This document shows, piece after piece, positions 13,664 to 32,800 of a stretch of 64,000 nucleotides of DNA (positions within the stretch are counted from its first letter, which is position 1; every line of letters begins with the position of its first letter). Location of the stretch: the NCBI GenBank assembly GCA_017468085.1, contig JAFUJR010000027.1, positions 80,691 through 144,690 on the forward strand. The letters are read 5' to 3'. The stretch comes from Clostridia bacterium (GTDB lineage Bacteria > Bacillota > Clostridia > Christensenellales > Borkfalkiaceae). The notes beneath the pieces were generated by a model that was given only the letters and a program-made list of their open reading frames with translations, had not been told where the DNA came from and did no database searches. A program made the position numbers and the translations under genes.

Positions 13664-15001
13664 TTGTTTAAGTTCAGAAATGACAGCTATGCAGACGTGC
13701 GCATAGAAGACAGATTTTCCACCAACGTTTCTTTCATGAACGGAACGCTGAAGGAAATGAAGGAAAGAAAGGAAAAACGCGCGTTTATCCGCGTGTTCGA
13801 CGGCAAAATGTGGTATTATGCTTCTACGACGGATATCGCAGACGTGCAAAACAAGCTTGACGGGCTTTACGCGCAGGCAAAAAGCAACGCAAAAATCGAA
13901 AAGAACGCTACGGTCAAACGTTACCAAGTCAACGTAGAGGAAAAGATGGTTTTCACGGGCGCGTCCGTGCGTGATATATCTATTATGGAAAAGATGGCGC
14001 TCCTCAAAAAATATTTGCCCGTCTTAAGCGCCTCGCCCCTTATGGCGATGCCCCAAGCGATGTATCTTGACAGAAACAGCGTGTTCGAGTTTTATTCCAG
14101 CAAAGGCGCGGCTATCAAATACGATTATCAAACGTGCGGGCTTGTGCTCTCTTGTACGCTTGCCGACGGCGACAAGCATTTCTCTGCCCATCACCAAATC
14201 GGCGACGTATATTTCCATAAACTCAAAGGCAAAACCCGTATTTTGAAAGAATCCTTTGCCGAGCAGGTAGAATATATGCAGACCGCAGTTCCCATCGAGG
14301 CGGGGGAATACCCCGTAATTCTTTCCCCCGAGGCGGCGGGTATTTTCGCACACGAATCCTTCGGGCATAAATCGGAGGCGGACTTCATGCTCGCAGACGA
14401 GGGTATCCGCCGTGAGTGGCAAATCGGCAAAGAGGTCGCTTCGCCTTTGCTTACCATCGTCGATTGCGGTAAATCGCTTGGCAGCGGTTACGTTCCTTAC
14501 GACGACGAGGGTACGAAAGCGCGCAAGAATTACCTCATCAAGAAGGGCGTCTTGGCGGGCAGATTGCATAGCGGCGCAACGTCCGCGTACTTAAAGGAAA
14601 GAACGACGGGCAACGCGCGTGCGGTAAATTGCACGTTCGAGCCTATCGTTCGTATGACCAACACCTATATCGACAAGGGCGACCTTACCAAGGACGAACT
14701 TTTCGCAGGCGTCAAATTCGGTTATTATATCAAGAGCGTAAGCCACGGCTCGGGCATGAGTAAATTCACCATCGCGCCCAGCGTCGCTTACGAAATCGTA
14801 GACGGAAAAATCACCCGTCCCGTAAAAATCAGCGTTATAACGGGCGACGTGTTCACCACGCTCGGTCTTATCGACGGACTTTCCGATAAGGTAGAGTTTA
14901 TGAGCTTCGTTTCCGGCGGTTGCGGTAAAATGGAACAGAATCCGTTGCCCGTAGGCTTCGGCGGTCCGTACGTCCGCGTTTCCAAAATGTTCGCGCAGTA
15001 A
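13664..15001 (+). CDS. tldD: TldD-type zinc metalloprotease (U62)
   Basis: Cytoplasmic protease subunit of 445 residues. The HExxxH zinc motif HESFGH sits at about residues 230-235, in the context AGIFAHESFGHKSEADFML, and a Cys-rich, Gly-rich C-terminal half ends at VSGGCGKMEQNPLP. In characterised systems TldD pairs with TldE (PmbA) to degrade unfolded peptides and to trim microcin or antitoxin precursors. The start codon is TTG, placed by the strong GGAGGA seven bases upstream. The following gene is its expected partner, 12 bases away. No RiPP precursor was recognised next to the pair, so a housekeeping role is as likely as peptide maturation. Confidence 0.92.
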   Translation: MFKFRNDSYADVRIEDRFSTNVSFMNGTLKEMKERKEKRAFIRVFDGKMWYYASTTDIADVQNKLDGLYAQAKSNAKIEKNATVKRYQVNVEEKMVFTGASVRDISIMEKMALLKKYLPVLSASPLMAMPQAMYLDRNSVFEFYSSKGAAIKYDYQTCGLVLSCTLADGDKHFSAHHQIGDVYFHKLKGKTRILKESFAEQVEYMQTAVPIEAGEYPVILSPEAAGIFAHESFGHKSEADFMLADEGIRREWQIGKEVASPLLTIVDCGKSLGSGYVPYDDEGTKARKNYLIKKGVLAGRLHSGATSAYLKERTTGNARAVNCTFEPIVRMTNTYIDKGDLTKDELFAGVKFGYYIKSVSHGSGMSKFTIAPSVAYEIVDGKITRPVKISVITGDVFTTLGLIDGLSDKVEFMSFVSGGCGKMEQNPLPVGFGGPYVRVSKMFAQ

Positions 15002-15013
15002 GGAGGGGATATC

Positions 15014-16249
15014 ATGGAAAAAGAATACTTATTAAATAAAAGTAACGAAATCACCTTGAACGTTACCGACGGCAAAGTGGACTCCTATCGTGAAAAAGAC
15101 GAAACGCAATCCACCGTCCGCGTCTACGAAAACGGCACTATCGGCGTAGCGGGCGCACTTGGCGACCCCGACTTCGACGCACTCGAAAAAGAGGCGGCTG
15201 CAAAACTCGGCGGTATTCCTTATCCCTGCAAATTAAATGCAGGCGTTAAAAAGAGTATTATCCGCAACAAACCCGTAGTGTCGGAGAAGGACGTTTTGCG
15301 CGTAGGTAAACGCTTGGCGAAAAAGGTGGCGGCGGCTTGTCCCCGTTTCCTTATCAACGGCAAAATCCAAACCGCGCGCCGTCAAGGCAGCTATAAAAAC
15401 TCGCAGGATACCGAGCTCTCCTACGAAAATACGTCTTTTTATGCAAGTTTTATTTTAAAGGATAAAGATTCGTCCAACATTATGGACGCAAGCTACGGCG
15501 TTTCCGTTTCCCGTTACGGCAGTGTAACCGAACGGAAAATCGTTGACGACGTAAAAACCTTGCACGACGCGTATTTCGGCGAAAAGGTAACTTTGCCCGA
15601 CGGCAAATACCCCGTTATCCTCGCGCCCGTCGACGTCCTCGGTCAAATCGTAAAAGATTTCATCGCGGAATACTACGTTTCAGGCGGCTCTCTTTTCAAA
15701 GAGAAACTCGGCGAAAAGATTTTTAATGAAAATTTGACGGTTGCCGTGGACAGAAATCCCGTTACCAACCGTTCGGCGGCGTTCTACGACGCGGAAGGGG
15801 AAATTGCCCCTAACTACCGCGCAAATCTGATTCAAGACGGCGTATTCAAAAACGTGCTCAACTGCAAAAATACAGCGACGATGTTCGGCTTGCCTTTGTC
15901 TAAAACGGCAGCCGGCGCATACGACGGCGTTCCCTCCATCGGTTTCCCCGGCGTGTACGTAAAACCCACCGCAACCGACGTAAACGAACTTCTCGGCGCG
16001 GAAAAGGCGGTGTACGTCTTGATCACTTCGGGCGGGGATATCACCACGGAAGGGGTGCTCGGCTTGCCCGTGCAGCTCGCTTTCTTGGTTGAAAACGGAA
16101 AAATCACCAAGCGCGTTACCGATTTCACCATCAGCGGCAACGTACGGGACGTTTTGGGCGACGACTTCATCGGCGTAACCCAAAAGGACGTATTCACCAC
16201 CCCCCAAGAGGGCGTTTTGGTCGCAAAAATGAATCTTATTAATAACTAA
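15014..16249 (+). CDS. pmbA: TldE/PmbA-type partner protein
   Basis: Second half of the TldD/TldE complex, 411 residues. It shares the fold and C-terminal pattern of TldD (YVLITSGGDITTEGVLGLP, then DFTISGNVRDVLGDDF) but has no HExxxH motif, as expected of TldE, which is non-catalytic in the heterodimer. The ribosome binding site AGGAGGGGA precedes the ATG. The gene is co-transcribed with tldD, and no clear terminator follows before the repeats upstream of the importer operon. Confidence 0.9.
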   Translation: MEKEYLLNKSNEITLNVTDGKVDSYREKDETQSTVRVYENGTIGVAGALGDPDFDALEKEAAAKLGGIPYPCKLNAGVKKSIIRNKPVVSEKDVLRVGKRLAKKVAAACPRFLINGKIQTARRQGSYKNSQDTELSYENTSFYASFILKDKDSSNIMDASYGVSVSRYGSVTERKIVDDVKTLHDAYFGEKVTLPDGKYPVILAPVDVLGQIVKDFIAEYYVSGGSLFKEKLGEKIFNENLTVAVDRNPVTNRSAAFYDAEGEIAPNYRANLIQDGVFKNVLNCKNTATMFGLPLSKTAAGAYDGVPSIGFPGVYVKPTATDVNELLGAEKAVYVLITSGGDITTEGVLGLPVQLAFLVENGKITKRVTDFTISGNVRDVLGDDFIGVTQKDVFTTPQEGVLVAKMNLINN

Positions 16250-16530: not shown

Positions 16531-19287
16531 ATGAACAAGAAAATCAAGTCCTTGCTTGCATTGTTGATGGGTGTCGTTATGTCCACTAGTATCGTAGCTT
16601 GCGGCGACAACAACAAGCCCGATAACAGCGGTTCTAACAGCAACACGGAAAGCAACACTGACGGCGACGTAACAACGACGTTCGTTGAGAATGCGGACTA
16701 CACGACGATGGACGACTACAAAGCTTACTTAGCTGCTGACCTCGACGTTGTTAAAAACGCAATTGGCGCTTCGGTTAGCGCTGAAGTTGCAGCGGCTGTT
16801 GACGCGGCTTTGGCAGACGGCAAAGCGGCTATCGACGCGGCAACGGATATTCCCACGGCAAAGGCAGCGTACAAAGCGGCGGCAGAAGCTATGCAAAACG
16901 CAGTTCCCGCGGCAAACGGTACGTTCAACTTCTCCGGTCTTTCCGCTGCTGAAAAGACGAAAATTCTCGGTCAGTTGGAAGCATACGGTATCCGTAACGG
17001 TATGCTCGGCGTAACGTTGTTTGAAAACGGCGGTTACGTTCTTATTAATGATCGTATCCAGCTTGCAACCGAAAACTACATCTCCGGCTACGGTTTCGGT
17101 ATTTTGTCTGAAGGTAGCATTACCGCAGACCTCGAAGCAGAAAACAACGTGGATTGGAAGAGATATTATCACGCAGTAGAAGCTGCTGACCCCGGTACGG
17201 CAAACTATCTTAACAGCCAAGGCTCCGACGTTGGCGATTTCTATAGCTATATCGGCGCAAGCTATTATACCACTTTCATGAACAGCACGAAAGACGGTTA
17301 CGAATGGGTGCCCGAATTGGCTGTTGCTGATCCCGAGCCCGTTAACGGCTTAGACGAAAACGGTCAGGCGGCTACTTGGAGATTTGAGATCCGCAGCGGC
17401 TTGAAGTATAGCACGAATTCCGCAATGACTGATCGCGCGGCGTTCAACAACCGCGAAGTTGTTGCTGAAGATTTCATTACGCCTTTCAAATTGCTTCTTA
17501 ACCAAGCAAACAGCTATTACAGAGGCTCCGAATTGGCAAATCAAAGCGGTGCGGCTTCGATTGTGGGCGCTAAGGAATATTACGAAGCAACCAAGAACGC
17601 GGAAAAGGGTATTCTTTCCGACGACGTCGTTGACTTCAGCGGCGTAGGCGTTAAGGTTTACGAAGAAGAGGGTAAGACCTATTTCGAATATACGCTCGGC
17701 GCTCCTACGACGGCTTACTATGCTAGATATTACATCTCCAGCTCTTTGTATATGCCTATCCCTGAAGAGTTCATCGAATTGGTTGGCGTAGACAACTATT
17801 TGAACTTCAACTCCGATAAAACGACTTCTCCCGTAGACAACTCCCTCTCCTTAGGCGCTTACGTTTTGGAAAGATGGGATAGCGGTCAGCAGGTTGTATA
17901 CAAGAAGAACCCCAACTACGTATATGCTGATACGAAGTACAGCATCCCCGGCGTTCACCTCAATATTTTGCCTGCCGCTGCAGACGATAAGGAAGCTGTT
18001 ATTAAAGAATTCCTTGCAGGTAAAGTTGACTCCTGCGGTATCCCCGATACCTATCTTGCTGAATACAGCAACGACCCCCGTGCAAAGACCACGACGGGTG
18101 ATAGCTGCTTCAAATTGAACATGAACGCGCTCGATCAAGAAACCTGGATTTCCTTGTTCGGTGAAAACGGTAGCTACAGCCAGACCAGTGCAGATAAGTA
18201 CTGGACGGTTGAACCCGCTCTTTCTAACGCACACTTCCGTTTGGGCTTGTCCTACGCGCTTAACAGAAAGGCGTTTGCAGAATTGAAAGGCTCCGTTGGT
18301 ACGGCAAACTACTTCAGCTCCGACTATATGTCCGATCCCGAAAACGGTATTTCCTACAACGCAACGCAGGAACACAAGGACGCTGTAAGCTACTTGACCG
18401 ACGATACGGACGGCTACGGCTTCAATTTGGAACTTTCCCGCGACTACTTCCGTATGGCTCTTGACGAATTGGAAGCAGACGGTCTTATCGTACCCGGTAC
18501 GACGGAAAATCCCACCGTTATCGATATCGAAGTTGTTTGGATGTATCCTACGAACCAAGAAGGCTACCACAACCACGTTGCTAAATATTGGATGGACGCG
18601 TTTAACGATGAGTCCGTAACCGGCGGCAAGTATAAGTTGCAATTCACCTTCGACGTTGGTGAGGATTATATGTATTGCTACAACAAGATGTTGGCAGGTC
18701 AATACGACATCGGTTTCGGTTCCATTTCCGGTAACCCTCTCGATCCCCTTAACTTCCTTGGCGTTAACTCTACGAATGCTGCTATTTCCGGCGACTTCAC
18801 GTTGAACTGGGCTGTTAACACGAACACGTTGACCGAAGCGTTGGTATACAACGGACAACGTTGGTCCTACGACGCATTGTATCAATCCTCTCAACAGTTG
18901 ACGATTGTTGAAAACGGTTGCGAAGCAAGCGCATACGAATTGGCAAGCGTTACGCCTGAAACGAAGGACGACGGTAGCATGGTTGTAACGATTGTTCTTG
19001 AAAACAGTTCGGCGGTTGATGCACTTGCCCTTGACAAGCTCGTAATCTTCGGTGGCGGTTATAGCGTAGCTTACAACGAATGGGCTCTTGACGCGTCTAT
19101 GTATACCGTAAACTATGACGCTGAAGCTGATACGTTGACGATTGTTGCTACCCTTCCTGCATCGGAACTTGCTAAGGTTCCCGTTGACGCAAACCAGGGT
19201 CTTGACGTATATTTCACGTACACGATTGGTGAAGCGGCAGCGTCTGCATATGTAACTGCTTACGTTACTTTTAGTGTAGCAGAGTAA
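16531..19287 (+). CDS. Opp-type ABC importer substrate-binding lipoprotein, enlarged
   Basis: Extracellular solute-binding lipoprotein of 918 residues, against about 540 for OppA. The signal peptide ends in lipobox SIVAC with the lipidated Cys at residue 24. An Asn/Ser/Gly linker and an Ala-rich helical module (about 55-130) precede the family 5 binding domain (about 150-790), which contains GLKYSTNSA, LGAYVLERWDSGQQVVYKKN and FRLGLSYALNRKAF. A C-terminal beta-rich module (about 805-918, NGCEASAYELASVTPETKDD onward) resembles an Ig-like domain. It heads a five-gene importer operon and is followed by a hairpin that could raise its level relative to the permeases. Peptide or oligosaccharide ligands are both known for this family. 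Confidence 0.88.
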   Translation: MNKKIKSLLALLMGVVMSTSIVACGDNNKPDNSGSNSNTESNTDGDVTTTFVENADYTTMDDYKAYLAADLDVVKNAIGASVSAEVAAAVDAALADGKAAIDAATDIPTAKAAYKAAAEAMQNAVPAANGTFNFSGLSAAEKTKILGQLEAYGIRNGMLGVTLFENGGYVLINDRIQLATENYISGYGFGILSEGSITADLEAENNVDWKRYYHAVEAADPGTANYLNSQGSDVGDFYSYIGASYYTTFMNSTKDGYEWVPELAVADPEPVNGLDENGQAATWRFEIRSGLKYSTNSAMTDRAAFNNREVVAEDFITPFKLLLNQANSYYRGSELANQSGAASIVGAKEYYEATKNAEKGILSDDVVDFSGVGVKVYEEEGKTYFEYTLGAPTTAYYARYYISSSLYMPIPEEFIELVGVDNYLNFNSDKTTSPVDNSLSLGAYVLERWDSGQQVVYKKNPNYVYADTKYSIPGVHLNILPAAADDKEAVIKEFLAGKVDSCGIPDTYLAEYSNDPRAKTTTGDSCFKLNMNALDQETWISLFGENGSYSQTSADKYWTVEPALSNAHFRLGLSYALNRKAFAELKGSVGTANYFSSDYMSDPENGISYNATQEHKDAVSYLTDDTDGYGFNLELSRDYFRMALDELEADGLIVPGTTENPTVIDIEVVWMYPTNQEGYHNHVAKYWMDAFNDESVTGGKYKLQFTFDVGEDYMYCYNKMLAGQYDIGFGSISGNPLDPLNFLGVNSTNAAISGDFTLNWAVNTNTLTEALVYNGQRWSYDALYQSSQQLTIVENGCEASAYELASVTPETKDDGSMVVTIVLENSSAVDALALDKLVIFGGGYSVAYNEWALDASMYTVNYDAEADTLTIVATLPASELAKVPVDANQGLDVYFTYTIGEAAASAYVTAYVTFSVAE

Positions 19288-19320
19288 TCGTTAAACAAAA
19301 CATTTCGTAAAAAATGCAAA

Positions 19321-19356
19321 GGTGATAAGGCTTATTCTGTAAGCCTTATTACTTTT
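19321..19356 (+). terminator. Intercistronic hairpin between binding protein and permease
   Basis: GATAAGGCTTA / TAAGCCTTATT stem of at least ten perfect pairs, extended by wobble pairs, loop TTCTG, then a four-T run. It is probably a partial terminator or RNA-stabilising hairpin giving more binding protein than permease. Confidence 0.6.
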
Positions 19357-19380
19357 GTATAGAATAGGAGGAAGATAAAC

Positions 19381-20415
19381 ATGGGTAAATATGTTATTAA
19401 AAGAATACTATTGGCTGTTTTAACGGCATTTATAGTATTATCCCTCACGTTTATATTGGTAAAGCTGTTGCCGCCTGAAAAATCGGTAGGTAACGCAGTA
19501 ACGAGACAGGCGTATTACGATAATCAGGTATCTTTAGGATACATGATTTCAAGCAGATTTGAAATAGCCGGTCTTGAATTGGTAGATTTTGTAACGGCGA
19601 AAAACGGTACGCGTACCTATTATTACGAAGTACCGGTTATGGAACAGTATTTTAATTGGATCTCCAATATTCTTTTCCATTGGGAATGGGGTTATTCGCA
19701 AATTTTGGAACCCAACGTAAGCGCAACGGTCATCATCGGCGAAAGATTGGTTACTTCTATGAAGATCAACATCGTTTCGGTGCTCGTTTCTGTTCCGATT
19801 GGCATTTTACTTGGTATTTGGGCAGCGCTTAAGAAAAATACGCTCACCGACCATATTATTTCGACGTCGGTTATGATTTTAATATCTTTGCCGAGCTTCG
19901 TAATAATTACTTTCCTCATGCTGCTGTTGTGTTACAATAGCCATGTTTTGCCTACGCAGTGGCCGAATCCTACGGATCCCATCGGCGAAAAGATTTTGGG
20001 CTACATCCTTCCCGTATTCTGTTTGTCGTTAGGTTCGATATGCGGATACTGTCGTTTCGTTCGTGCCGAGTTGTGCGACGTTATGGCAAGCGATTATTTG
20101 TTGCTTGCCCGTACCAAAGGCTTGACGCGTAAGCAGGCGATTTTCCGTCATGCGTTAAAAAATGCAATGGTGCCTATTTTCCCTTCCATTCTTGCAGAAT
20201 TTATCGGCATTTTGGGTGGTTCCATGATATTGGAAAATCTCTATGGTATTCCGGGAATAGGTAGTTTATTTGTAAAATCGTTGACGGCGAAGGACTATAA
20301 TATTTTATTTGTTGATTTGGCTATTTTCACTACGCTTGGTTTGCTTGCAGGGGTAGTTTTGGATCTTTCCTATGGCTTTATCGACCCGAGAATTAGAATG
20401 GGGGCGAAGAAGTAA
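19381..20415 (+). CDS. Opp-type ABC importer permease, OppB-like
   Basis: Inner-membrane permease of 344 residues. The first membrane segment (about 8-28) is followed by an extracytoplasmic stretch of roughly 75 residues, then five segments of the BPD_transp_1 domain. The coupling-helix motif reads EYxx-like DYLLLARTKGLTRKQAIFRH near 235, and the C-terminal ILENLYGIPGIGSLFVKSL is typical of OppB/DppB. Its length is only slightly above the family norm (about 306), in contrast to its partners. AGGAGG precedes the ATG, and the stop codon overlaps the ATG of the next gene by one base, so translation is coupled. Confidence 0.92.
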   Translation: MGKYVIKRILLAVLTAFIVLSLTFILVKLLPPEKSVGNAVTRQAYYDNQVSLGYMISSRFEIAGLELVDFVTAKNGTRTYYYEVPVMEQYFNWISNILFHWEWGYSQILEPNVSATVIIGERLVTSMKINIVSVLVSVPIGILLGIWAALKKNTLTDHIISTSVMILISLPSFVIITFLMLLLCYNSHVLPTQWPNPTDPIGEKILGYILPVFCLSLGSICGYCRFVRAELCDVMASDYLLLARTKGLTRKQAIFRHALKNAMVPIFPSILAEFIGILGGSMILENLYGIPGIGSLFVKSLTAKDYNILFVDLAIFTTLGLLAGVVLDLSYGFIDPRIRMGAKK

Positions 20416-22340
20416 TGGCTCAATCTGTAGATTTAACAAAATATGAAATAAACGAAAATTCCTTCCGCTTTGTCAATGCAGACAGGCGGATTACGGATAC
20501 GCAATTACGAACCAAAGGCAGTTCTTTTGCTAAGGACGCGTTCCGACGTTTTTGTAAAAACAAGGCGTCTATTGTAGGCGCAATCGTTTTAGGGGTTTTG
20601 TTGTTGCTGTCGCTTATCGTTCCTCTTGTTTCCCCGTACAGTGTGAAAGTTGGGGACGCAAACATCAGCGAGCATTTCTTAGAACCCAAGCTTTTTGAAG
20701 CAGGAACGGGTTTTTGGGACGGAACGAAGACCTACAAAAAGACGGTGAATAGGGACGGTTCTATCAGCGGCGTTGTTTACGATACTGAAAACGAATGTCC
20801 CGCGGGCTTTGTTAAAGCCGCCGTAAGCAAGCTTGTCGTGGATACAGAGCCGACGTATATCAACAAAGCAACGTCGACTGGTTCGGGCGGTTATATGGTT
20901 TTTCAAACGGACAACGACGATTCGGAAAAAAACGCGCTCCTTTATAACTATCATTCCTTCCCCGTTACGGCGGACGGCGGGTATACGCTGTCTTATACGA
21001 TGTATGCGCAGGATGATATCAACGAAAGCAAATTAGGTAAATTCTGCGTATATCTGTTGGATGAAGAAACCGAGGAAAAGATAGTTTTGCAGGATTGGAC
21101 TTCCGAATATAACAACGCAACGTTTGATATCAGCGCAATGCTTGCCGAAAAGAATCTTTCTGTTTTAAATAAGTGTAAAATTTATTTTGAAATAGAGAAA
21201 ACGCCCAAGCAGAGCAATTATATTCTTTTGCAGAATCTCACGTTGTCTTGCGCAGATTCCGACGTGAATGAAAAACTTTCGGCGATTAGCTTCACGGACG
21301 CAACCAAAATGGTAAACCGTGCCGTTGTCGGGCAAGATTATCCCGCGGGATATTGGCAGTCAACGGGCGTTAAGGGCGTTTATGCTTCTAAAGTGTATTA
21401 TTGCGAATTCGTTTACGATACCTACGAAGTGGTGTACGGCAAAAGCGAAGAGGTTTATGCTATTTCCGACTTCCGTAAGTTGAAAGAGCAAGGGCTTTGC
21501 GATTTCGATGAAAAGGACATTATAGCAACCTTTACGCCGTTGAGCGATAAATGCCCGATAAGAGAAGTTCTCGACGTTACCAAAAATTCCAAAACGGGAA
21601 AGGTACAAAGCGTTAAGGTTAACGTACCCAAATACTATAAAATGGGCTACGACAAGATGCCTAAGCACCTTTTGGGAACGGACGAAAACGGTTACGATTT
21701 GATCACCTTGATGTTTACGGGCTTACGTACTTCCTTGTTGTTAGGCGTATGTACGGCGGCATTCTGTTTCTGTTTCGGTTTGGCTTGGGGTTCTATTTCC
21801 GGCTATTTTGGCGGCGCGGTTGACCTTGCAATGGAACGCTTTTGCGACATCTTAGGCGGTATTCCTTGGTTGGTTGTTATGACGCTTGCAATATTGCACT
21901 TCGGTAATGGTTTTGGCACCTTCTTTATGGCGCTGTGTCTTACCGGCTGGATGGGCACGGCGGCGCGTACGCGTACGCAGTTCTACCGCTTTAAGGGCAG
22001 TGAATACGTACTGGCAAGCCGTACGTTAGGCGCAAGCGATTTCCGTTTGATATTTAAGCATATTTTGCCCAATTCGCTGGGTACGATTGTTACTTCCAGC
22101 GTGCTTATGATTACAAGTACGATTTACAGCGAAGCGACTTTGGCGTATTTGAATTTGGGCTTGCAGGGGACGCAGGCGTTCGGTGTTATGATGGCGGCGA
22201 ATCAGCAATATATTCAATCCTTCCCGTTCTTGGTTATATTCCCTGCTATCATTATGGCTTTACTAATGATTTCGTTTAACTTGTTCGGTAACGGTTTACG
22301 CGACGCGCTTAACCCGACTTTGCGAGGTGCGGAGGATTAA
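20415..22340 (+). CDS. Opp-type ABC importer permease, OppC-like with large extracellular insert
   Basis: Permease of 641 residues, about twice the OppC norm of about 300. The N-terminus and first membrane segment (about 55-77, AIVLGVLLLLSLIVPLVSPY) and the last 220 residues (from KHLLGTDENGYDLITLMFTG) are ordinary OppC, including the coupling motif EYVLASRTLGASDFRLIFKH. Between them sits an insert of about 300 residues in the loop facing outside. It is beta-rich (YTLSYTMYAQDDINESKLGK; KVYYCEFVYDTYEVVYGKSE) with at least one repeat-like sheet pattern. The insert would lie where the binding protein docks, so it may contact that protein's extra modules. Codon use and operon spacing match the neighbours. 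Confidence 0.88.
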   Translation: MAQSVDLTKYEINENSFRFVNADRRITDTQLRTKGSSFAKDAFRRFCKNKASIVGAIVLGVLLLLSLIVPLVSPYSVKVGDANISEHFLEPKLFEAGTGFWDGTKTYKKTVNRDGSISGVVYDTENECPAGFVKAAVSKLVVDTEPTYINKATSTGSGGYMVFQTDNDDSEKNALLYNYHSFPVTADGGYTLSYTMYAQDDINESKLGKFCVYLLDEETEEKIVLQDWTSEYNNATFDISAMLAEKNLSVLNKCKIYFEIEKTPKQSNYILLQNLTLSCADSDVNEKLSAISFTDATKMVNRAVVGQDYPAGYWQSTGVKGVYASKVYYCEFVYDTYEVVYGKSEEVYAISDFRKLKEQGLCDFDEKDIIATFTPLSDKCPIREVLDVTKNSKTGKVQSVKVNVPKYYKMGYDKMPKHLLGTDENGYDLITLMFTGLRTSLLLGVCTAAFCFCFGLAWGSISGYFGGAVDLAMERFCDILGGIPWLVVMTLAILHFGNGFGTFFMALCLTGWMGTAARTRTQFYRFKGSEYVLASRTLGASDFRLIFKHILPNSLGTIVTSSVLMITSTIYSEATLAYLNLGLQGTQAFGVMMAANQQYIQSFPFLVIFPAIIMALLMISFNLFGNGLRDALNPTLRGAED

Positions 22341-22343
22341 GAT

Positions 22344-24590
22344 ATGGAAAAAAAGTTAGAAGTAAAAAATTTGACTATATCTTTCCGTACGCCAAACGGA
22401 AAGGTGCAGGCAGTCCGTGATATTTCTTTCGATTTGTACAAGGGTGAAACCTTGGCAATCGTAGGGGAATCGGGTTCGGGTAAGTCCGTAACCTCCAAAT
22501 CGATCATCGGTATTTCGGCGGCAAACGCCATCGTTGAAAACGGTCAAATTTTGTACGACGGGCAAGACCTCGTGCGTATTCCCGAAGAGGAAATGCACAA
22601 GTTGCGCGGCGACAAAATCGCGATGATTTTCCAAGACCCGCTTTCCGCGCTCGACCCTATCGTGCGTATCGGTCAGCAAATCACGGAAGCAATGCTTTTA
22701 AAGAACAAGGAAAGCCGTAAAAACGCGCGCAAGGAGTTCAACAAAAAACTTGCAGTATTAGCGCAAATGATGACGGCTGCGGTTGAGCATGGCGCATTGA
22801 AAGGCGGCCCTCTTGAAAACTTCAACCAAATTGCCGAATATATTACTACGTTCGATAAATTCAATATTAAGGCAATTCAGCTTGAAAACAGCTACAACAC
22901 TGCGCGTAATGCGGCGGGCGAAGCTACTGCAATGATCGACGATTTCCTTTTCCTTGTAGAAAAGCGCCAAAAAGTAGACGTTTCCACGACGGTGAAAGCC
23001 GTGCTTCGTAAGCTGAAAGCCGTCAACGACAAATATTTTATGGGCGGCTCTGTTGAACAACTCAACGCGTACATGGTAGCCCTTAACGAGATTAAAGGCG
23101 AGAAAAAAGACGTCAATCCCGCAGTGGAGCAATTCACCAAGATCCGCGCTTGGTTGCAAGAAATTCTCAATCAACCGCAGTACAACTTCTTCCGTATCGG
23201 CTATTATCTCTACAAGAATCCGACGGAAGATTTAAGCACGATTCCTGCGGAGGAGGCAAACAAAAAGGCATACGACTTCTTGATGACGGATTATATGACG
23301 ACCTTCTTGCAGTTGGAAAAAGCCGCGATTGCTTATTCCATGCAGGCGTCGATTGCCGCCAAGAAAGAGGCTATCGTCGCGCTCGAAGAAGGCGTGCAAT
23401 TCTTCACGAAGGGCAGTTTTACCAAGAAGGAAGCGTTTGGGCGTTTTAAGAGCTTGAACAAGATCGTTCGCGCTACCATCGACCCGTTGGCTGTTATCAA
23501 AGACAACATCGCTTATACCTTCGGTAGTGCGCTGAATACGGAACTTGACAAGTATTTCTTCTACGTGGTGAATAACCCGAAGGAAGAAAAGCGTTTCGAT
23601 AAGCAAACGGCAAAGCACGAAGCGCTTATTCAACGCGGTAAAAGTGTGGATTGGAAGGTCGTTCCTAAATCCGTCGTTCCTCTGGAAATGCAAATCCAAA
23701 CGATTGTTACCGTCTTGTCGCGCGTTATAGATAAATTTAAGGCGGACGTTGCCAATGCGGAGAACGTAGACCTTGACCAACAGACGGTTGCTTTGGTTGA
23801 CTATTTAAAAGAAACGGCGTCTAAGGTCGTTTATAAAATCACCCCCCGCCTCGCAAAGGAAAAGGCGATCAAGTTGATGGAGGAGGTCGGTATTCCCGAA
23901 CCCCGTATCCGTTACAGACAATATCCCTTTGAATTTTCGGGCGGTATGCGTCAACGTATCGTTATCGCAATCGCATTGTCGGCAAACCCCGACATTTTGA
24001 TCTGCGACGAACCGACGACGGCGCTCGACGTTACCATTCAGGCGCAAATTCTCGAACTTATCAACAGATTGAAAAAGGAACGCAATCTTTCCATCATTTT
24101 CATCACGCACGACTTGGGCGTCGTTGCAAATATGGCGGACAGAATCGCGGTTATGTACGCAGGTAAAATCGTGGAATACGGCACGGTTGACGACGTTTTC
24201 TATAATCCTCGCCACCCGTATACCTGGGCGTTGCTTTCGTCCATGCCTGACTTGGACACCAACGAAAAGCTGGACGCAATCCCCGGTACGCCGCCTAACA
24301 TGATTTATCCGCCCGTGGGCGACGCGTTTGCGGAAAGAAACAAATACGCAATGCAAATCGACTACGAAATGCAGCCGCCGATGTTCCAAATTTCGCCTAC
24401 GCACTTCGCGGCTACTTGGTTGTTGCATCCCGATGCACCTAAAGTAGATATTCCTAAAAATATCACCGACAGAATTCAGCGTATGCGCAACAGACGTGAG
24501 GCGCAGAGCGCGGAAACGGCGGCAAAAACGCAACCCGAAGCTGTTGAAGAACAACCCGCTCCCGTAGCGGAAACACAGGATCAAGAATAA
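22344..24590 (+). CDS. Opp-type ABC importer ATPase, OppD-like with about 375-residue insert
   Basis: ATPase subunit of 748 residues against about 335 for OppD. Walker A GESGSGKSVTSKS (about 38) and Q-loop MIFQDPLSALDP (about 94) are followed by an insert from about residue 120 to 498. The chain then resumes with LAKEKAIKLMEEVGIPEP, signature FEFSGGMRQR, Walker B ILICDEPTTALD and switch His ITHDLG. All catalytic motifs are intact. The insert is charged and predominantly helical by eye (KKLAVLAQMMTAAVEHGALK; EAIVALEEGVQFFTKGSFTK) and sits in the helical subdomain that contacts the permease. I do not recognise it. The C-terminal OppD substrate-specific tail is present, followed by a low-complexity Glu/Pro-rich end. 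Confidence 0.88.
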   Translation: MEKKLEVKNLTISFRTPNGKVQAVRDISFDLYKGETLAIVGESGSGKSVTSKSIIGISAANAIVENGQILYDGQDLVRIPEEEMHKLRGDKIAMIFQDPLSALDPIVRIGQQITEAMLLKNKESRKNARKEFNKKLAVLAQMMTAAVEHGALKGGPLENFNQIAEYITTFDKFNIKAIQLENSYNTARNAAGEATAMIDDFLFLVEKRQKVDVSTTVKAVLRKLKAVNDKYFMGGSVEQLNAYMVALNEIKGEKKDVNPAVEQFTKIRAWLQEILNQPQYNFFRIGYYLYKNPTEDLSTIPAEEANKKAYDFLMTDYMTTFLQLEKAAIAYSMQASIAAKKEAIVALEEGVQFFTKGSFTKKEAFGRFKSLNKIVRATIDPLAVIKDNIAYTFGSALNTELDKYFFYVVNNPKEEKRFDKQTAKHEALIQRGKSVDWKVVPKSVVPLEMQIQTIVTVLSRVIDKFKADVANAENVDLDQQTVALVDYLKETASKVVYKITPRLAKEKAIKLMEEVGIPEPRIRYRQYPFEFSGGMRQRIVIAIALSANPDILICDEPTTALDVTIQAQILELINRLKKERNLSIIFITHDLGVVANMADRIAVMYAGKIVEYGTVDDVFYNPRHPYTWALLSSMPDLDTNEKLDAIPGTPPNMIYPPVGDAFAERNKYAMQIDYEMQPPMFQISPTHFAATWLLHPDAPKVDIPKNITDRIQRMRNRREAQSAETAAKTQPEAVEEQPAPVAETQDQE

Positions 24591-24607
24591 TACAAGGAGG
24601 ATGAAAT

Positions 24608-25939
24608 ATGTCTAATGAACAAAATGTACAAAGCGTAAATTGTCCTCAATGCGACAATCCTGCGCAAGCGGTGCAAGCCAACGACGAGGTTTTGTTGAAG
24701 GTCGAGCATCTTTGCCAATATTTCCGTATGGGCAACCGCGAGCTGAAAGCGGTAGACGACGTCAGCTTTGAAGTAAAAAAAGGGGAGGTTTTCGGGCTTG
24801 TAGGCGAGTCCGGTTGTGGTAAAACCACGACGGGCAGATCCATCATCAAACTTTACGATATAACCTCCGGCAACGTCTATTTCAACGGCGAAAGGGTGGG
24901 GGCAGGTACGCGTTCATATAGGGACGCAATCAAAAATGCTCGCCGCGCCGCCGCGCAAAAGACGAGGGAATTAAAGGCGGAGTTGAAGGCTGATCCTAGC
25001 CGTGAGGCAGAAATCGCAGCCGAACTTGCCGCTTTGCAAGAAAGCACCGCCGCAATCGTCGCGGAAAATAAAAAACTTATCCGTGAAGCAAAGTGCAGCG
25101 AAAGAACGGCTAATAAAAATTATACGGAAAAGCTCGTGCAGGAATTGGAAGCGGAATACGCCCCCAAATTTGCCGAGGCAGAGGGCAACGAAGAGGAAAC
25201 GAAGAAGTTGCAAAAAGAGTTTGCGGCTAAGCGCCGCGAGGCAAAGAGAAATCGTTTGATGACGCAAATTCAAATGATTTTCCAAGACCCTATCGCATCC
25301 CTCGACCCTCGTATGACGGTCCGTGATATTATTGCCGAAGGCTTGATCATCAACGGTATTCGCGATAAAAAGCGCATCGACGAAAAGGTGTACGAGATTT
25401 TGGAAACGGTTGGCTTGGTGCGCGAGCACGCAGACCGTTACCCTCACGAATTCTCGGGCGGTCAACGTCAGCGTATCGGTATTGCGCGCGCCGTCGTCAT
25501 GCAACCCGAAATGATTATCGCGGACGAACCTATTTCCGCGCTCGACGTATCTATTCAAGCGCAGGTTATCAACCTTTTGAACGATTTGAGAGAGCGCTTG
25601 GGGCTTACCATTCTCTTCATTGCGCACGATTTGTCCGTTGTTAAATATTTCTCGGATAGAATCGGCGTTATGTACTTTGGTAAGATGGTCGAGCTTGCTT
25701 CCTCGGACGACTTATTCAAAAATCCTTTGCACCCTTATACCCGTTCGTTGTTGTCGGCAATACCTTTGCCTGACCCGCATTACGAAAAGCAGCGTACAAG
25801 GGTAACCTACAACCCCATTGCAGAGCACGATTATTCTAAGGATTTACCTACGATGCGTGAGGTTGCGCCCGGACACTTCGTATATTGCAACGATGCGGAA
25901 GAGGCGAAGTATAAGCAAATACTTAAACAGGCAAACTAA
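24608..25939 (+). CDS. Opp-type ABC importer ATPase, OppF-like with charged coiled-coil insert
   Basis: Second ATPase, 443 residues against about 330 for OppF. A short N-terminal extension contains CPQC. Walker [14 protein letters not shown] is near residue 77. An insert of about 115 residues (about 97-215) rich in Glu, Lys, Arg and Ala ([20 protein letters not shown] onward) precedes the Q-loop [14 protein letters not shown]. It is likely a coiled-coil hairpin. Signature [12 protein letters not shown], Walker [13 protein letters not shown] and switch His IAHDLS follow. The insert position differs from that in the OppD partner, so the two were gained separately. It closes the importer gene set, with GGAGG before its ATG. 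Confidence 0.9.
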
Positions 25940-25963: not shown

Positions 25964-26374
25964 ATGTCGGGTAATAAAAAATCAATACTAATTAAATATT
26001 TAGTGTGCTTTTGCATTGCCGTGGCGCTCGTTTTCGTTATACTCCTTATTCAGGGCTTTTTTAAGGATACCGTGAAAGCGAATATGCACGTTCTCCACAA
26101 CGCTTTCTTTGCAACGGGCGCGTTAATGATGCTCTTTTCGGGCTTATTATTCGTAACGGACGAGGGGGCTTTTCTCGGCGTTGGGTATGCCTTTGGCAGA
26201 TTGGTAAAAACGTTGTTGCCTTTTTGGGGAAAAGACCACGAAACTTATGCGGAATATCGCGAACGGAAAGAAAGCAAAAAGAAAACCAGTACAGTCAAGC
26301 TCAGCCTTTTGTTGACGGGCTTGGTGTTCTTCCTTATCAGCTTGATATTCTTAGTAATTTGGCACAACGTTTAA
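25964..26374 (+). CDS. DUF3899-family membrane protein
   Basis: A 136-residue protein with hydrophobic segments near residues 10-30, 45-68 and 110-132 and a charged cytoplasmic stretch (KDHETYAEYRERKESKKK) between the second and third. The layout and the TGALMMLFSGLLFVTDEGAF motif match the small DUF3899 family of Bacillota. It follows the ATPase gene by 24 bases and precedes the operon terminator, so it is co-transcribed with the importer. The function of the family is unknown. An accessory role in the transporter is only a guess from position. Confidence 0.75.
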   Translation: MSGNKKSILIKYLVCFCIAVALVFVILLIQGFFKDTVKANMHVLHNAFFATGALMMLFSGLLFVTDEGAFLGVGYAFGRLVKTLLPFWGKDHETYAEYRERKESKKKTSTVKLSLLLTGLVFFLISLIFLVIWHNV

Positions 26375-26855: not shown

Positions 26856-29800
26856 ATGACAAAAATTACGAAGAAAATTGTTGGTTTAATTTTTGGCGCA
26901 ATCGCTTTCGTTGCCTTTTCTTTCGGGCTCGTATTCACGACGCCCCAAGTCAAGACGGCAAAAGCAGAAAGTGTCGCGGTTACGTTCAGCCAAGCGTTAT
27001 CTGAAGGACACGACAACGAAAAGACGGGCTATTTGCAAGTGCGTATGGATACGGACGGTTTAACTTGGAACGGCTCTTACAACGATAAGTTGGTAAGTGA
27101 ATTGCCCGGTAACGTTGCCAACCACGTTACTGTAAACGGTAGTACGTTGACCGAGCTTTCCAATATGAACACAAGCACGTTGCCGGTTATCGTTACCATG
27201 CAACCTGCAGGTTCGTTTAGCTTTATCCGCGTATGGGTACCTACCGACTTTATGACGGACAGTCAATTATACTCTTTGGGTATAATAGACGGCTTTTCGT
27301 TTGTAGACGACGGAACGAACGGAACGGGAACGACCTTTACCAGTTCGGCGATTGCCTATTCGCGTAGTGTGCAACTCGGCGGTTTTACCAACGTAAAGAA
27401 TTATTCGGATAAAACCGAACTTTTGACGGCTTCCGACGTTACCATCGGTGATGCGGTAATGGCGAATGTCGATTGTTTAGAGGTGGAAATTACTGCCTCA
27501 AAATTGAGCAGTTATTCCTATGAGATTATGGGTAGTCCAGCTGCGGCGCAACTTATGCGTAATATGGTTCACATCAACGGTAAATCTGTTGAAACGTGGA
27601 ATACACAGCTTATTGCAGAAGATCCTGCATACGAAACGGCTTATGGTATGTATAGATGTTTCCCTCAAAATTCCGCTACCTCGGGACACGAAAAATTCCA
27701 TAGACCGATTGGTCTTTACGCTACGGATACGGGTTTGAAATTGCATATTTTCTATAACGTAATTGCAAATTTTGACGAAATCGTTATCACGCTTAGCGAA
27801 GGCTGTACTGGTGAGCTTTCCACGATTGTTACGGAAAGGGTTTCCAAAACTGTATGGACGCAGGAAGCCGTGAATATCACCAGTATGCTGACTTTCTTGG
27901 ATAACACCTCTGCGAACGCAGCTTCCGAAGGTTATAAAAACTATTATATTCATTTGAATGATTCTTCAAAAACCTATTGGAGCAAACCTCCCATGGGCGG
28001 CGTTTTGAATGAGGGCGATCCCCTGGGCGCGAACGGCGGTCAAACGCAAATGCGTTATATTTACTTCAATGGCACGTCTCTTTACGATATAAATAAAGGC
28101 GATGACGGTAGTTATGGTTCCACGCAAGCGAACATCGCAAACGGCAGTGTATATGCGCCAATTGTAGTATGGATGACCAGTGAGGTCGGCGGTTCGGTAA
28201 AGCTTTACGTGCCTGACTTGTTTGGCGGCGAGGGTACGACGGCTGCGGAAAACCATAAGGAAATTATTTTCAAAAAGGGCTTTGCCATTTATGAAAACGG
28301 CGTTTCCTGCTACCTTTCAAACGACGTTGTTTTCACCAACGACGGCGCAGGTAATTGGACGAAGGAAATAAAAGGTATTGAAATCGAAACCGAAGTTACG
28401 GGCATTATCACCAAAGCAAACCGTACGGACGGCGGCACAAACGAAAGATTTTTTATCATTCAGCTTTCCAACAACGACTATTCGGGTGCATCTACGACGA
28501 GTATCTTGGACTTTAGTTCTTTGTTCGGTTATATCGACGTTGGCGGCACGGTTATAAACAGCACTCCTAGTGAACCTTTCTTCAACGTATGGGGGGTTGA
28601 AAACAGCGTTGCGTTCCGTATTTCCGGTTGGACGGCGGAAAACGTGCAACAAGCACCTTACATCACTATTAAAGCGGGCGCAAAATTCCCTTCCTATAAT
28701 ACGCAATATAACGGCGGCGCTTTGACGTATTACGTAACGACGGAAGATATTACGTTTAATCACGACGTTCCCAACGATACGTGGACGGTTGCTACGCTTA
28801 GCGGGGAAGAGTATACCGTAACCTTCACGGTAGACGGCGCAACCTACCATACGGCAACGGTTACGGGCGGCGCAACGGTGAGCGCGCCTGAAGCGCCTAC
28901 CAAGGCAGAGGATGAAAACTATACCTACACCTTCAACCAATGGCTGTTGGATGGCGAAGCGTACGATTTTAATACGACGGTTACAAGCGATATCACCCTC
29001 GTTGCAGAGTTCACGGCAACGCAAAAAGCAGGGGATAAAGATATCACGAGCGAACTTGCGTTTGTTCATCAAGATCAACAATACAACGGTACGGAAACGT
29101 ACATGATTAAAACCACCAACGCTTATTGGACGAAAGCGGCAATGCAAGGCGGTTGCTTGAACGAATACGACCCTGAAAATGCAGGCGGCGGTCAGGAAGT
29201 TTTGAAATATATCTATTTCAACGGCACTTCGCTGTACGATATCAATAAAAACGAACACGGTAGTTTCGGTTCCGAACAAGGCAATATTGTAACCGGCGGC
29301 ATTTACGCGCCTTTCTTGGCAACGGTTGGCTTAGACGGCACGTATAGTTACGTTCAAATTCATATGCCCACCTTGTACGGTGGCGAGGGGACGACGGCAA
29401 ACGAAAACCATAAGAGCTTTGAGGTGAAATCAGGGTTTGCGTTGACGGAAAACGGCGTTACTTATAAGGTTACGCAGGATATCAAATGGGTCAACCTTAA
29501 CGGCAACTGGGTAAACGGAAATTCGACCTTTGCGGCTGACACCGTTGAAATCGGCAACCTGCGCGTTGACGGCGATGCAAACGAGCTTTATAAAGTGGAT
29601 ATTGTTTCCGAAAGCTGGAACGTTACGTGTAATTACTACGATTTCATGTACGATGGGAATTATGCGGAATATCGTAAATTTTTCTTCATTAACGGCGTAT
29701 CCGTTTACGATATCAATACGAATACGGACGACAGCGAATACGTTTACAGTACGTTCCCGATGACGGGTAGCGATGATAGCACATTTGCGCATCCCGTATT

Positions 29801-32800
29801 GATTCAAGCCATGAACCAGGGCGGCGACCCTTATACGATTACCCTTTGGATTCATAAAAACTATATCAATAGCTTAGACGGGGAAATCGTGGTAACGCTC
29901 GGCGCAGGTTATAACGTGTATACGGACGGTCTTGCGTTGGCGGAAGACGTAAGCTATGCTTTGAATTTTACAGTAGAAATTGACAACGGTACCAATTCGT
30001 ACTCGGCGACTATGTTCCAGGGTACGACGGTAGGTAGCTTGGGCACGCCTTCAAAATCCATGACCTCTACCACGAAATATGCGTTCGAGGGTTGGTATGA
30101 CGCGAATACGGATACGAAGCTTTCTGCAGAAACGGTTATTACAGCGGATATGAGCCTCGAGGCAAGATTTACTGAAACGACGGTAAACCTTATTGAAACG
30201 GATATTGAAACGGCAACCTATTTCATTAATGATGAGGATAATAAGGATAGATGGTTCTATTTCACCCTTACCGAACACGACTATCCTACCGATGTAAGCA
30301 CGGATGACTTTACCAATGATTACGTGAAGAGTATCGGGCTTTTGGATATGGTTACCTTGATAGGTGATATAACGTTGGGTAGTACTTCGGTTACGGAAGC
30401 AACGCTCGCGGAAATTTATACCGCGAACGGATACGGCGAAGCTATATACATGAATATTTGGGATACGACCAATTATTTGGGTACGATTGCATTCCGTATC
30501 CCCGGCGTTAACACCATTACGGAAGTGGTTGTAGAAGAAGGCGCGTTCTTCCCTTCTTACGCCTATGTATCGGGGAGCACGACGGTAGAAACCTATTATA
30601 TGCTTCCCAAAACGGTAACGGCGATCAACAATAACGAAGAGGGCTTAAATGGCGTGCTCGTTCCCGAACAGTCGGCGGCGTATGATATTCAAATGGCAGA
30701 GGGCGCAGGCGTTCGTTTGTCCGCAGGTAACGATTATACCACGAGCGGACTTCGTTTTGAAACGAAGATTTCCGTAGACGACGTGGTGGCTTTGGCTACG
30801 CTTGTAGACGACGGCGTTTATGATAACGTTGAATTCGGTACGCTTATCGTGCCTAAGGATTATATGGTTGGCGGCTTGTTCACACACGAGTGGTTAGCAA
30901 GCAACGGCTTTAATTATATTGACAAAATAGCCTCCGTAACAGCGGAAGCCGACACGGGGATCTACGAATTCGCAAAGGAGGAGGACGGATATTATTCCTA
31001 CTTCTTGTCCATTGTTAATTTGAAAGAGACGAATCTGAACAGAGAGTTTGTCGGTCTTGGTTATATTAAGATTTCTGTGGGCGAAGATATTATCTACGTT
31101 TATGCAGATTATGAGTCCACTAATGCGCGTTCGGCGTCCTTCGTTGCAAATGCGGCAATCAATGACCGCAGTGAAGAAGCGACGGACGAATATGATAACT
31201 ACATTGAAGAGGGCAACAACTATTCGCCTTATACGGAAGTAGACCTTGAATTCTTAAAAGGATACATTACGTGGACCGAAACCTCGGCTGTTGCGTCCGA
31301 AGCGTTGACGGATTTGTCCGTCAAGGGCGGTGTCCAAACGATTACGCCTACTACGCAAGCGCTTGCAGGTCCTTACGTAGAGCTTGTGTATAAAACCAAC
31401 GTAAACGTTTGGGGCGTATTCACTTACACGGACGGTAGCAAGACGGCAAATGAGGACTTCTACTTGCAGGCAGGCACGACGAGCCATAAGCAATACCTCG
31501 ATATTTTCCGTTCCAACGGCGTAGGCTACGGTATGGATACGAGCAACTTGTCTATGACCTCCATCAAATTCACCAATGCAGAGTTGGCAACCAGCAGTGC
31601 ACCTGCAGGCGAAGTGCAGATTTTCGGTCTTTATTCGCAGAACAAAACGGTGGATATGGATAACCAAGAGATTTACCTTACGGTAGATCAGATAGACGGT
31701 TCTCAAATGACGGTGGGTGCGCACCTCGGTCTTGGCGGCGCGCTTACCTATCTTGCAAAATCGGGCATTTACGAAGGTGTAACAAATGCGTCTTATAATA
31801 GCGGTAACGTTCAGTTAAGTACCAGTACTAGTACTTTTGTTGAAACACATAAAACAAATTTGTGGGGTACTTCGTCGGAAGCAGGCTATTATGGACACGC
31901 AACCAGCAGTAAAGCGGCAGACGGTGCAGTTAACCTTATCAATAACTACGACGCAGGTCGTCAAATTCAGCAATCTTGGTATGCACAAGTCGGCGGCAGC
32001 GATAGCGCAACTGCAGGTGAAAACGGCTATACGCGTGCATTCTGTAAAACGGAAAGTTCTACGGGTAAATATTGGCCGTACAACCCCGTTCAAGCAGGCG
32101 ACGTTGTAAGTAACCCCGGTCAAATCGTCGATTATGAAATTACTGACAGCTATATCTACGTAAAAACACGTGCAATGGACTGGGCAAAGGGTAAAGGCAG
32201 CGATAGCCTTTCCGGTACGGTAGAGGGCGGCGTTACGACGAAGTCGTATATGGAAAATTACTATCGTTTGAAAGACGACGGTACGCTTACCGTAAACAAT
32301 TCCTTCGTGGATTGGAACGGCTTCACCGATATGGGTGATTGCGAGTGGGCTTCTACCGAGCTTCCCGCAGTATATCCCGTTCAAACCTTAAACTATTACG
32401 TAACGAATATGGACGGCGACGGTAGCTGGTCGGATGCACTTGAATACAGATCCGATTTGGCTAGTTGGGTCAGTGCAGATACTAGCGTAAGACAAACAGG
32501 CGATGAAAGCAAGGTGGAAAATTGGTTCGCTTGGGCAAACGGTGGAAGTGGCTCTGCAATCGGTTTGGGTATGTATATTCCTAACGTATACAGTTTTGTT
32601 TCGGGTAGATCTAAACAGAGTAATGCGAATTCGGTATCTGCGAACCGCAACTCGAGCAGCAATATCTTAGCCGAAAAAGGCTTGATGTCCAATATGCAAG
32701 ATATCCAATATACTTATCAGAGTACGTACGTATCCAACACCAGCTATACGGCGCCCGGCGTTCTCTTCCGTATGGAAGCCTACGTGCCTATCGAATATAG

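Follow-up and report, generated by a model that had tools for sequence, protein, structure and literature searches.

The operon studied here lies on the plus strand of a 64,000-nucleotide stretch of a Clostridia bacterium genome (contig JAFUJR010000027.1; the whole stretch is called the window, and all coordinates without a locus label refer to it), and its closest described relatives are the importers OppABCDF and DppABCDF. In the available excerpts of the paper on the E. coli Dpp structure, C-terminal iron-sulphur (Fe-S) domains are reported to stabilise the complex (PMC12136057). As far as these excerpts go, the window operon shares with such importers the gene set, the domains, the catalytic motifs and the use of two different ATPases, whereas it adds inserts in OppC, OppD and OppF, an OppA of permuted type and a DUF3899 gene, and is without the four C-terminal Fe-S cysteines. 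The best NCBIfam matches of the two ATPases were the mollicute models NF043079 (OppD) and NF043078 (OppF). Both models are enlarged and the OppF insert is found at the same site, but the insert of NF043079 precedes the Q-loop whereas that of the window OppD follows it. With the OppD insert elsewhere and scores far below the cut-offs (OppD 474 bits against 740, OppF 412 bits against 800), membership of the mollicute families was rejected.

The operon contains a binding protein, two permeases and two ATPases, all with the expected domains, and by its sequence encodes an Opp-type ABC (ATP-binding cassette) importer, for which peptide transport itself is predicted. OppA (16531..19287, 918 amino acids) has a lipoprotein-like start and an SBP_bac_5 domain at residues 275-749. 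It is followed on the same strand by the permeases OppB (19381..20415, 344 amino acids) and OppC (20415..22340, 641 amino acids) and the ATPases OppD (22344..24590, 748 amino acids) and OppF (24608..25939, 443 amino acids), all four supported by open reading frames (ORFs) and Pfam domains. The sequence-only reading, which had reported four large subunits beside an OppB of near normal size and intact ATPase motifs, was correct in these respects: Walker A, Walker B, signature, D-loop and H-loop were intact in the window OppD and OppF, and the catalytic motifs were conserved in 106 OppD and 99 OppF sequences. We lean, if only slightly, towards regarding the operon as a member of a distinct six-gene Opp subfamily (oppA-B-C-D-F and DUF3899) that is mosaic, has a permutant-type OppA and carries paired ATPase inserts predicted to form a clamp.

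The OppD insert spans residues 118-512, a few of which belong to the core (22695..23879, + strand), is about 390 residues long and was placed by alignment between the Q-loop and the signature. In OppF the insert covers residues 97-218, also with a few core residues (24896..25261, + strand), between Walker A and the Q-loop. In 73 aligned OppD inserts the hydrophobicity period peaked at 95-100 degrees, as in an alpha helix, and the mean column identity was 44%; 25 columns were nearly invariant and 2 fully so. The insert of OppF, charged and helix-prone, is conserved at its base and varies in its middle. A large helical insert in OppD and a charged one in OppF had been proposed from the letters alone and were found again here, and the nearly invariant columns argue that the extra parts are conserved. 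When the inserts were searched alone, as had been suggested, no Pfam or NCBIfam match was above the curated cut-off (lowest Pfam E 0.0026) and PHROGs gave only weak matches, and a known domain was therefore rejected for them. Two designed proteins, with E 0.013 and 0.15, were returned for the OppD insert by the search of solved structures and were rejected as relatives.

Searching with a profile of the OppD insert gave matches in 60 of the 396 genomes screened from the window's order, while a 398-genome sample of the whole phylum gave a single match, the window's own genome. The variant is unusual and, at the same time, widespread within its order. Among named genomes, 242 stretches were seen to encode a relative, and the best 80 of them were used. 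Clostridia or its families are named in the titles of these 80, the exceptions being one Acholeplasmatales and a Bacillota bin of unspecified affiliation, and gut samples from deer, sheep, goats and cattle are mentioned in many. Operons were read in these 80 loci and in 40 of the 60 matching genomes of the order. With identical OppD removed, the set consisted of 118 OppD-insert rows (the window, 8 first-fetched loci, 76 named loci and 33 later ones). The OppF insert accompanied the OppD insert in 113 of the 113 rows with a readable OppF; the other five had no parsed OppF, as it was split in L083, cut by the contig end in L144 and L148, unparsed in L129 and fused to OppD in L197. The comparison set comprised 29 rows, and none of its 26 pairs with a readable OppF, where Walker A and Q-loop are 48-68 residues apart, had either insert of the window's kind. 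The co-occurrence of the OppD and OppF inserts across genomes, a check proposed with the sequence-only reading, is thus confirmed for the loci read. In the three other comparison rows (L178, L179 and L180) single OppD-like proteins of about 660 amino acids (659-671) were present and no separate OppF was found; these are possibly fused, insert-free OppD-OppF proteins. L196 encodes one more OppD, for which parsing failed and which stands outside the counts, and L297 and L298, fetched later, also carry both inserts. Among the comparison rows, L176 and L177, from the same order, have an OppD with the mollicute-type insert before the Q-loop and an ordinary OppF; these OppD proteins matched NF043079 end to end with 710 and 722 bits, just below the cut-off of 740.

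The distance from Walker A to the signature in OppD stayed within a narrow range of 462-517 residues in the 118 rows, and that from Walker A to the Q-loop in OppF was 76-294 residues in the 113 rows, above the usual length in all of them, most commonly 157-158 (44/113), 135 (12) and 163 (10). This spread in OppF, together with variable tails and anchors, is what would be expected if the inserts were lineage-specific padding without a shared function. We consider padding very unlikely, as neither insert was lost in the 113 readable pairs, the OppD range is narrow and residues are conserved.

Several unusual ATPases were seen in single loci. L197 (5156-8854) encodes a natural OppD-OppF fusion of 1233 amino acids, with TldD/TldE after its DUF3899 gene. 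The mollicute-type OppD of L176 (6079-7824) and L177 (6338-8098) occurs alongside an OppB of 523-539 amino acids. In L199 (4860-6533) OppF has membrane-like hydrophobic segments within the insert itself, together with a weak match to DUF3592, in L190 (7856-10306) and L122 (9523-11133) hydrophobic segments lie within an N-terminal extension of OppF, and in L082 and L084 (both 9871-11316) membrane-like segments are found at the OppF C-terminus.

In a tree of the OppD and OppF cores with the inserts removed (58 rows, 34 of them with insert), the insert rows formed one side of one branch with support 100/99. The pair of OppD/OppF inserts was acquired on a single branch, and in the loci read neither was seen without the other. 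In the sister group of eight insert-free rows OppC (507-585 amino acids when complete) and OppA (686-778 amino acids) are already large, from which we infer that the outer proteins were enlarged before the paired inserts arose. The OppB and OppC core tree (52 rows) requires four changes of the insert label, at least three of them forced by well-supported branches, and because the label is scattered in this way the outer and inner halves differ in history. Both core trees were flagged for long branches.

OppA, OppB and OppC of the window and of genome G018 are similar to their counterparts in five loci from a different family, f19, and are referred to as type 2. The window OppB is 70-74% identical to these five loci versus 41% to L040, a locus of the window's own genus, whereas OppD and OppF are nearer to L040 (69% and 77%) than to L208 (57% and 64%). 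Quick trees of 26 rows placed the five tested type-2 rows together by OppB and not by OppD/F. Approximately unbiased (AU) tests, for groups picked after the identities were seen, rejected both the constraint of type-2 rows together in the OppD/F tree (p-AU 1.6e-6) and an OppB tree constrained to unite the window with L031 and L040 (p-AU 2.3e-41). When 282 genomes of the order were searched with the window OppA, five gave a match at E 1e-40: the genome it comes from and four members of genus g19. In this mosaic operon a rarer, second-type A-B-C half is joined to ATPases that resemble those of the window's own genus. Such an operon is a natural test case for the modularity of ABC importers, since matched ATPase domains were gained once and outer halves of another history stand above them.

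Seven type-2 loci in two families were found, and each combines a permuted-type OppA with an OppC that has the extra domain. The ATPases could be read in five of the seven, all five with both inserts; the contigs of L295 and L296 stop before these genes. According to the sequence-only reading the enlargement on both membrane faces may reflect a single coordinated system, in which the outer domains would dock a large substrate or partner and the inner ones a regulator or scaffold. Such a system would agree with the five readable type-2 loci and with the generally large outer proteins of insert-bearing rows, where OppA has 787-1016 and OppC 500-1001 amino acids (short or broken ORFs of L037, L103 and L195 omitted). 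A large OppC is nevertheless present in insert-free relatives too, the outer and inner trees conflict, and the inner inserts occur with both outer types. Paralogues were also found in which an OppC of about 640 amino acids goes with ordinary ATPases. Among loci with an enlarged outer half of the common type, some have the ATPase inserts and others do not, which leaves coordination across the membrane unsupported, and we give the coordinated system little credence. What remains of the claim is the co-occurrence of the OppD and OppF inserts and the pairing of OppA and OppC in the seven type-2 loci; the two-face coordination finds no support in view of the insert-free relatives with an OppC of 507-585 amino acids and the conflicting trees.

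The order of segments in the window OppA differs from that in its relatives. Its own end does not align with the C-terminal segment of the relatives, and residues 134-213 (16930..17169, + strand) correspond to that segment. A hidden Markov model (HMM) of the relatives' C-terminal segment matched residues 131-190 with 13.6 bits for the protein and 11.4 bits for the best stretch, as compared to 8.6 and 4.6 bits for the best of 200 shuffles. In the profile-profile comparison the same segment aligned with residues 134-213 over 74 columns at 15% identity (probability 86%, E 5.5e-6), and four other parts of the window OppA each reached a probability below 1%. A second BLAST alignment, between window residues 118-190 and L040 residues 764-835, was weak (23.9 bits). 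The remaining core, residues 212-750 (17164..18780, + strand), is in the usual order, being collinear with residues 55-706 of the 847 of L039 (profile-profile E 5e-32). The C-terminal profile of these HMM and profile-profile tests included one type-2 row, L208, and the match of that profile at the end of L208 was discounted because L208 is itself part of it. For a held-out control the type-2 rows were removed and a profile was built from half of the type-1 rows. The N-termini of 52 type-1 proteins then scored at most 4.6 bits and those of seven distinct type-2 proteins 9.1-16.9 bits; at the C-terminus type-2 proteins gave at most -1.2 bits or no match and type-1 proteins at least 69.7 bits.

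A protein with the usual end segment at its front, and absent from its end, has the chain order of a circular permutant, and for type-2 OppA this order is well supported at the sequence level. It could instead be that OppA is no permutant and that the N-terminal segment was borrowed from another binding protein and merely resembles the displaced piece, a view which, in the excerpts of their paper, the authors of PMC4990184 raise for their own permuted sugar-binding protein. The low similarity here (15% identity over 74 columns) would fit such borrowing. It is unlikely all the same, since in all seven type-2 OppA proteins the segment is missing from the end and has its match at the front, and the 52 held-out type-1 N-termini do not match. 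Permuted binding proteins are known, and for the one in question, the sugar binder Tp0684/MglB-2 of Treponema pallidum, the authors suggest a link to tethering (PMC4990184, excerpts). The window OppA resembles it, as described in those excerpts, in that both are tethered binding proteins whose chain is of the permuted type; Tp0684 differs as a Type I/cluster B sugar binder that has start strands at its end, whereas the window OppA has the end segment at its front. The window protein is a probable circular permutant among peptide-binding proteins. No match was found for it among solved structures and no relative among viral contigs.

Of the extra OppA modules claimed earlier, two stand: an Ala-rich helical module at about residues 50-126 (16678..16908, + strand), recognised by composition and similar to stretches at the start of type-2 OppA proteins, and a C-terminal module at about residues 790-918 (18898..19284, + strand), beta-like in composition, which replaces the usual end and does not match the relatives' C-terminal profile. 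Residues of about 134-213 are displaced core and not an added module. The displaced front segment would change the junction with the lipid anchor and may leave the new end free for another module.

The OppC insert, residues 78-417 (20646..21665, + strand), lies between the first transmembrane segment and the GTD motif and is extracellular by position. An alignment of 32 such inserts gave no helical hydrophobicity peak and a common part of about 200 residues with low identity, 14-21% to the window except for L031. The window-type insert is longer by about 120-180 residues with uncertain limits, and this extra part (approximately 20748..21284, + strand) is of the window type only. Its Pfam matches were below the cut-off (MAM, E 0.0026, in the window; DUF5003, E 0.002, in L208; BclA_C, E 0.0038, in L298), and we read it as jelly-roll-like. 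The largest OppC ORF seen, of 1001 amino acids, is that of L210 (8756-11758).

The sixth gene (25964..26374, + strand) starts 24 bases after oppF and encodes a protein of 136 amino acids with three hydrophobic segments, a probable sixth component. It is a member of the DUF3899 family PF13038 (E 1e-12; 48.6 bits against a gathering cut-off of 23.4 bits), for which we know of no function, and the name DUF3899 was not found in the open-licence PubMed Central (PMC) literature. All 101 insert rows with at least 2.6 kb beyond oppD have DUF3899 downstream in the same orientation, and so do six of the eight sister loci that lack the inserts (L166 ends too early and none was found at L041). In the phylum sample it was above the cut-off in 5 of 249 genomes, the window's own included. 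Four of these five have it beside opp genes and G662 does not, nor does G434, which has a sub-threshold match. In two other orders of the phylum DUF3899 was detected in 94/150 and 49/98 genomes, and among the best 30 DUF3899 loci of each, an opp-like gene of at least 40 bits lay within 1.5 kb in 56 of 60, with a weaker match in two more. The gene was variously placed after oppF, before oppA, between oppA and oppB or after oppC, and these varied placings beside opp argue for a functional tie. An uncharacterised membrane family is in this way tied by position to peptide importers.

In ABC transporters the two ATPases form a head-to-tail dimer, in which one ATP site would be made jointly by the OppD signature and the Walker A of OppF. 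Both inserts are predicted to leave the fold on the side of this site. Because both flank the same ATP site they probably meet, and would regulate or stabilise it as a clamp on the closing of OppD and OppF, perhaps with DUF3899. In favour of this reading we count the co-occurrence in 113 of 113 pairs against 0 of 26, the single branch, the narrow OppD range with its nearly invariant columns, the natural OppD-OppF fusion of L197 and the retained catalytic motifs. Among the open-licence PMC papers no literature was found on paired OppD/OppF inserts or on a permuted OppA.

Several observations weigh against this picture of a distinct subfamily with a clamp. The coupling of OppD and OppF inserts is a single evolutionary event, there being only one gain, and many of the 118 rows are near relatives, so that the counts are not independent events. 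The lengths of the two inserts are weakly correlated (Spearman 0.27, n=99), and in four loci the OppF insert is very short (Walker A to Q-loop 76-77). The single-sequence scores for the permutation are modest (9-17 bits). DUF3899 was absent from all 14 named control genomes, including B. subtilis, L. lactis and E. coli, which means that it is not a general requirement of Opp importers, and in other orders it is often on the opposite strand to the opp genes. The window ATPases are without the C-terminal set of four Fe-S cysteines, as OppD has one cysteine (554) and OppF one in that region (427), and these cysteines are absent also from the insert-free OppD of L038 and OppF of L038, L041, L042 and L044. 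The inserts hence did not clearly replace the clusters, and replacement was rejected as their explanation.

Upstream of the operon, on the same strand, the window encodes the TldD peptidase subunit (13664..15001), identified by domain search and a possible functional partner, as its gene adjoins opp in some other genomes, and the PmbA/TldE subunit (15014..16249; ORF and domain search), 281 bases before oppA. TldD-TldE was upstream of oppA in the window and in L040 and L045, both of the window's genus, and directly downstream of DUF3899 in all six fetched loci of family f6, which belong to one genus. The presence of TldD-TldE beside opp in these two different arrangements would suit inserts that serve as a docking platform, where incoming peptides are handed over to TldD/TldE or another such peptidase and import is thereby coupled to cleavage. 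TldD was however seen in only 8 of 118 insert rows, a lower bound as the stretches are limited, and we find the platform rather doubtful; the TldD/TldE association is a lead and not a rule. A broader version, which we regard as possible and hold tentatively, takes DUF3899 as a true sixth subunit in other orders too, the inserts as either a clamp or a peptidase dock at one ATP site, and the outer half as exchanged together with a natural permutant OppA.

Downstream of the operon (26856-32948, + strand) a protein of 2030 amino acids with a signal-like start is encoded, which had no Pfam match at E 0.01. The same ORFs as in L048 (contig C23, 55000-73000, of genome G000) were found in opposite orientation in L049 (contig C29, 20000-38000); the two are probably an assembly duplicate or a strain copy, in a genome listed at 5.44% contamination.

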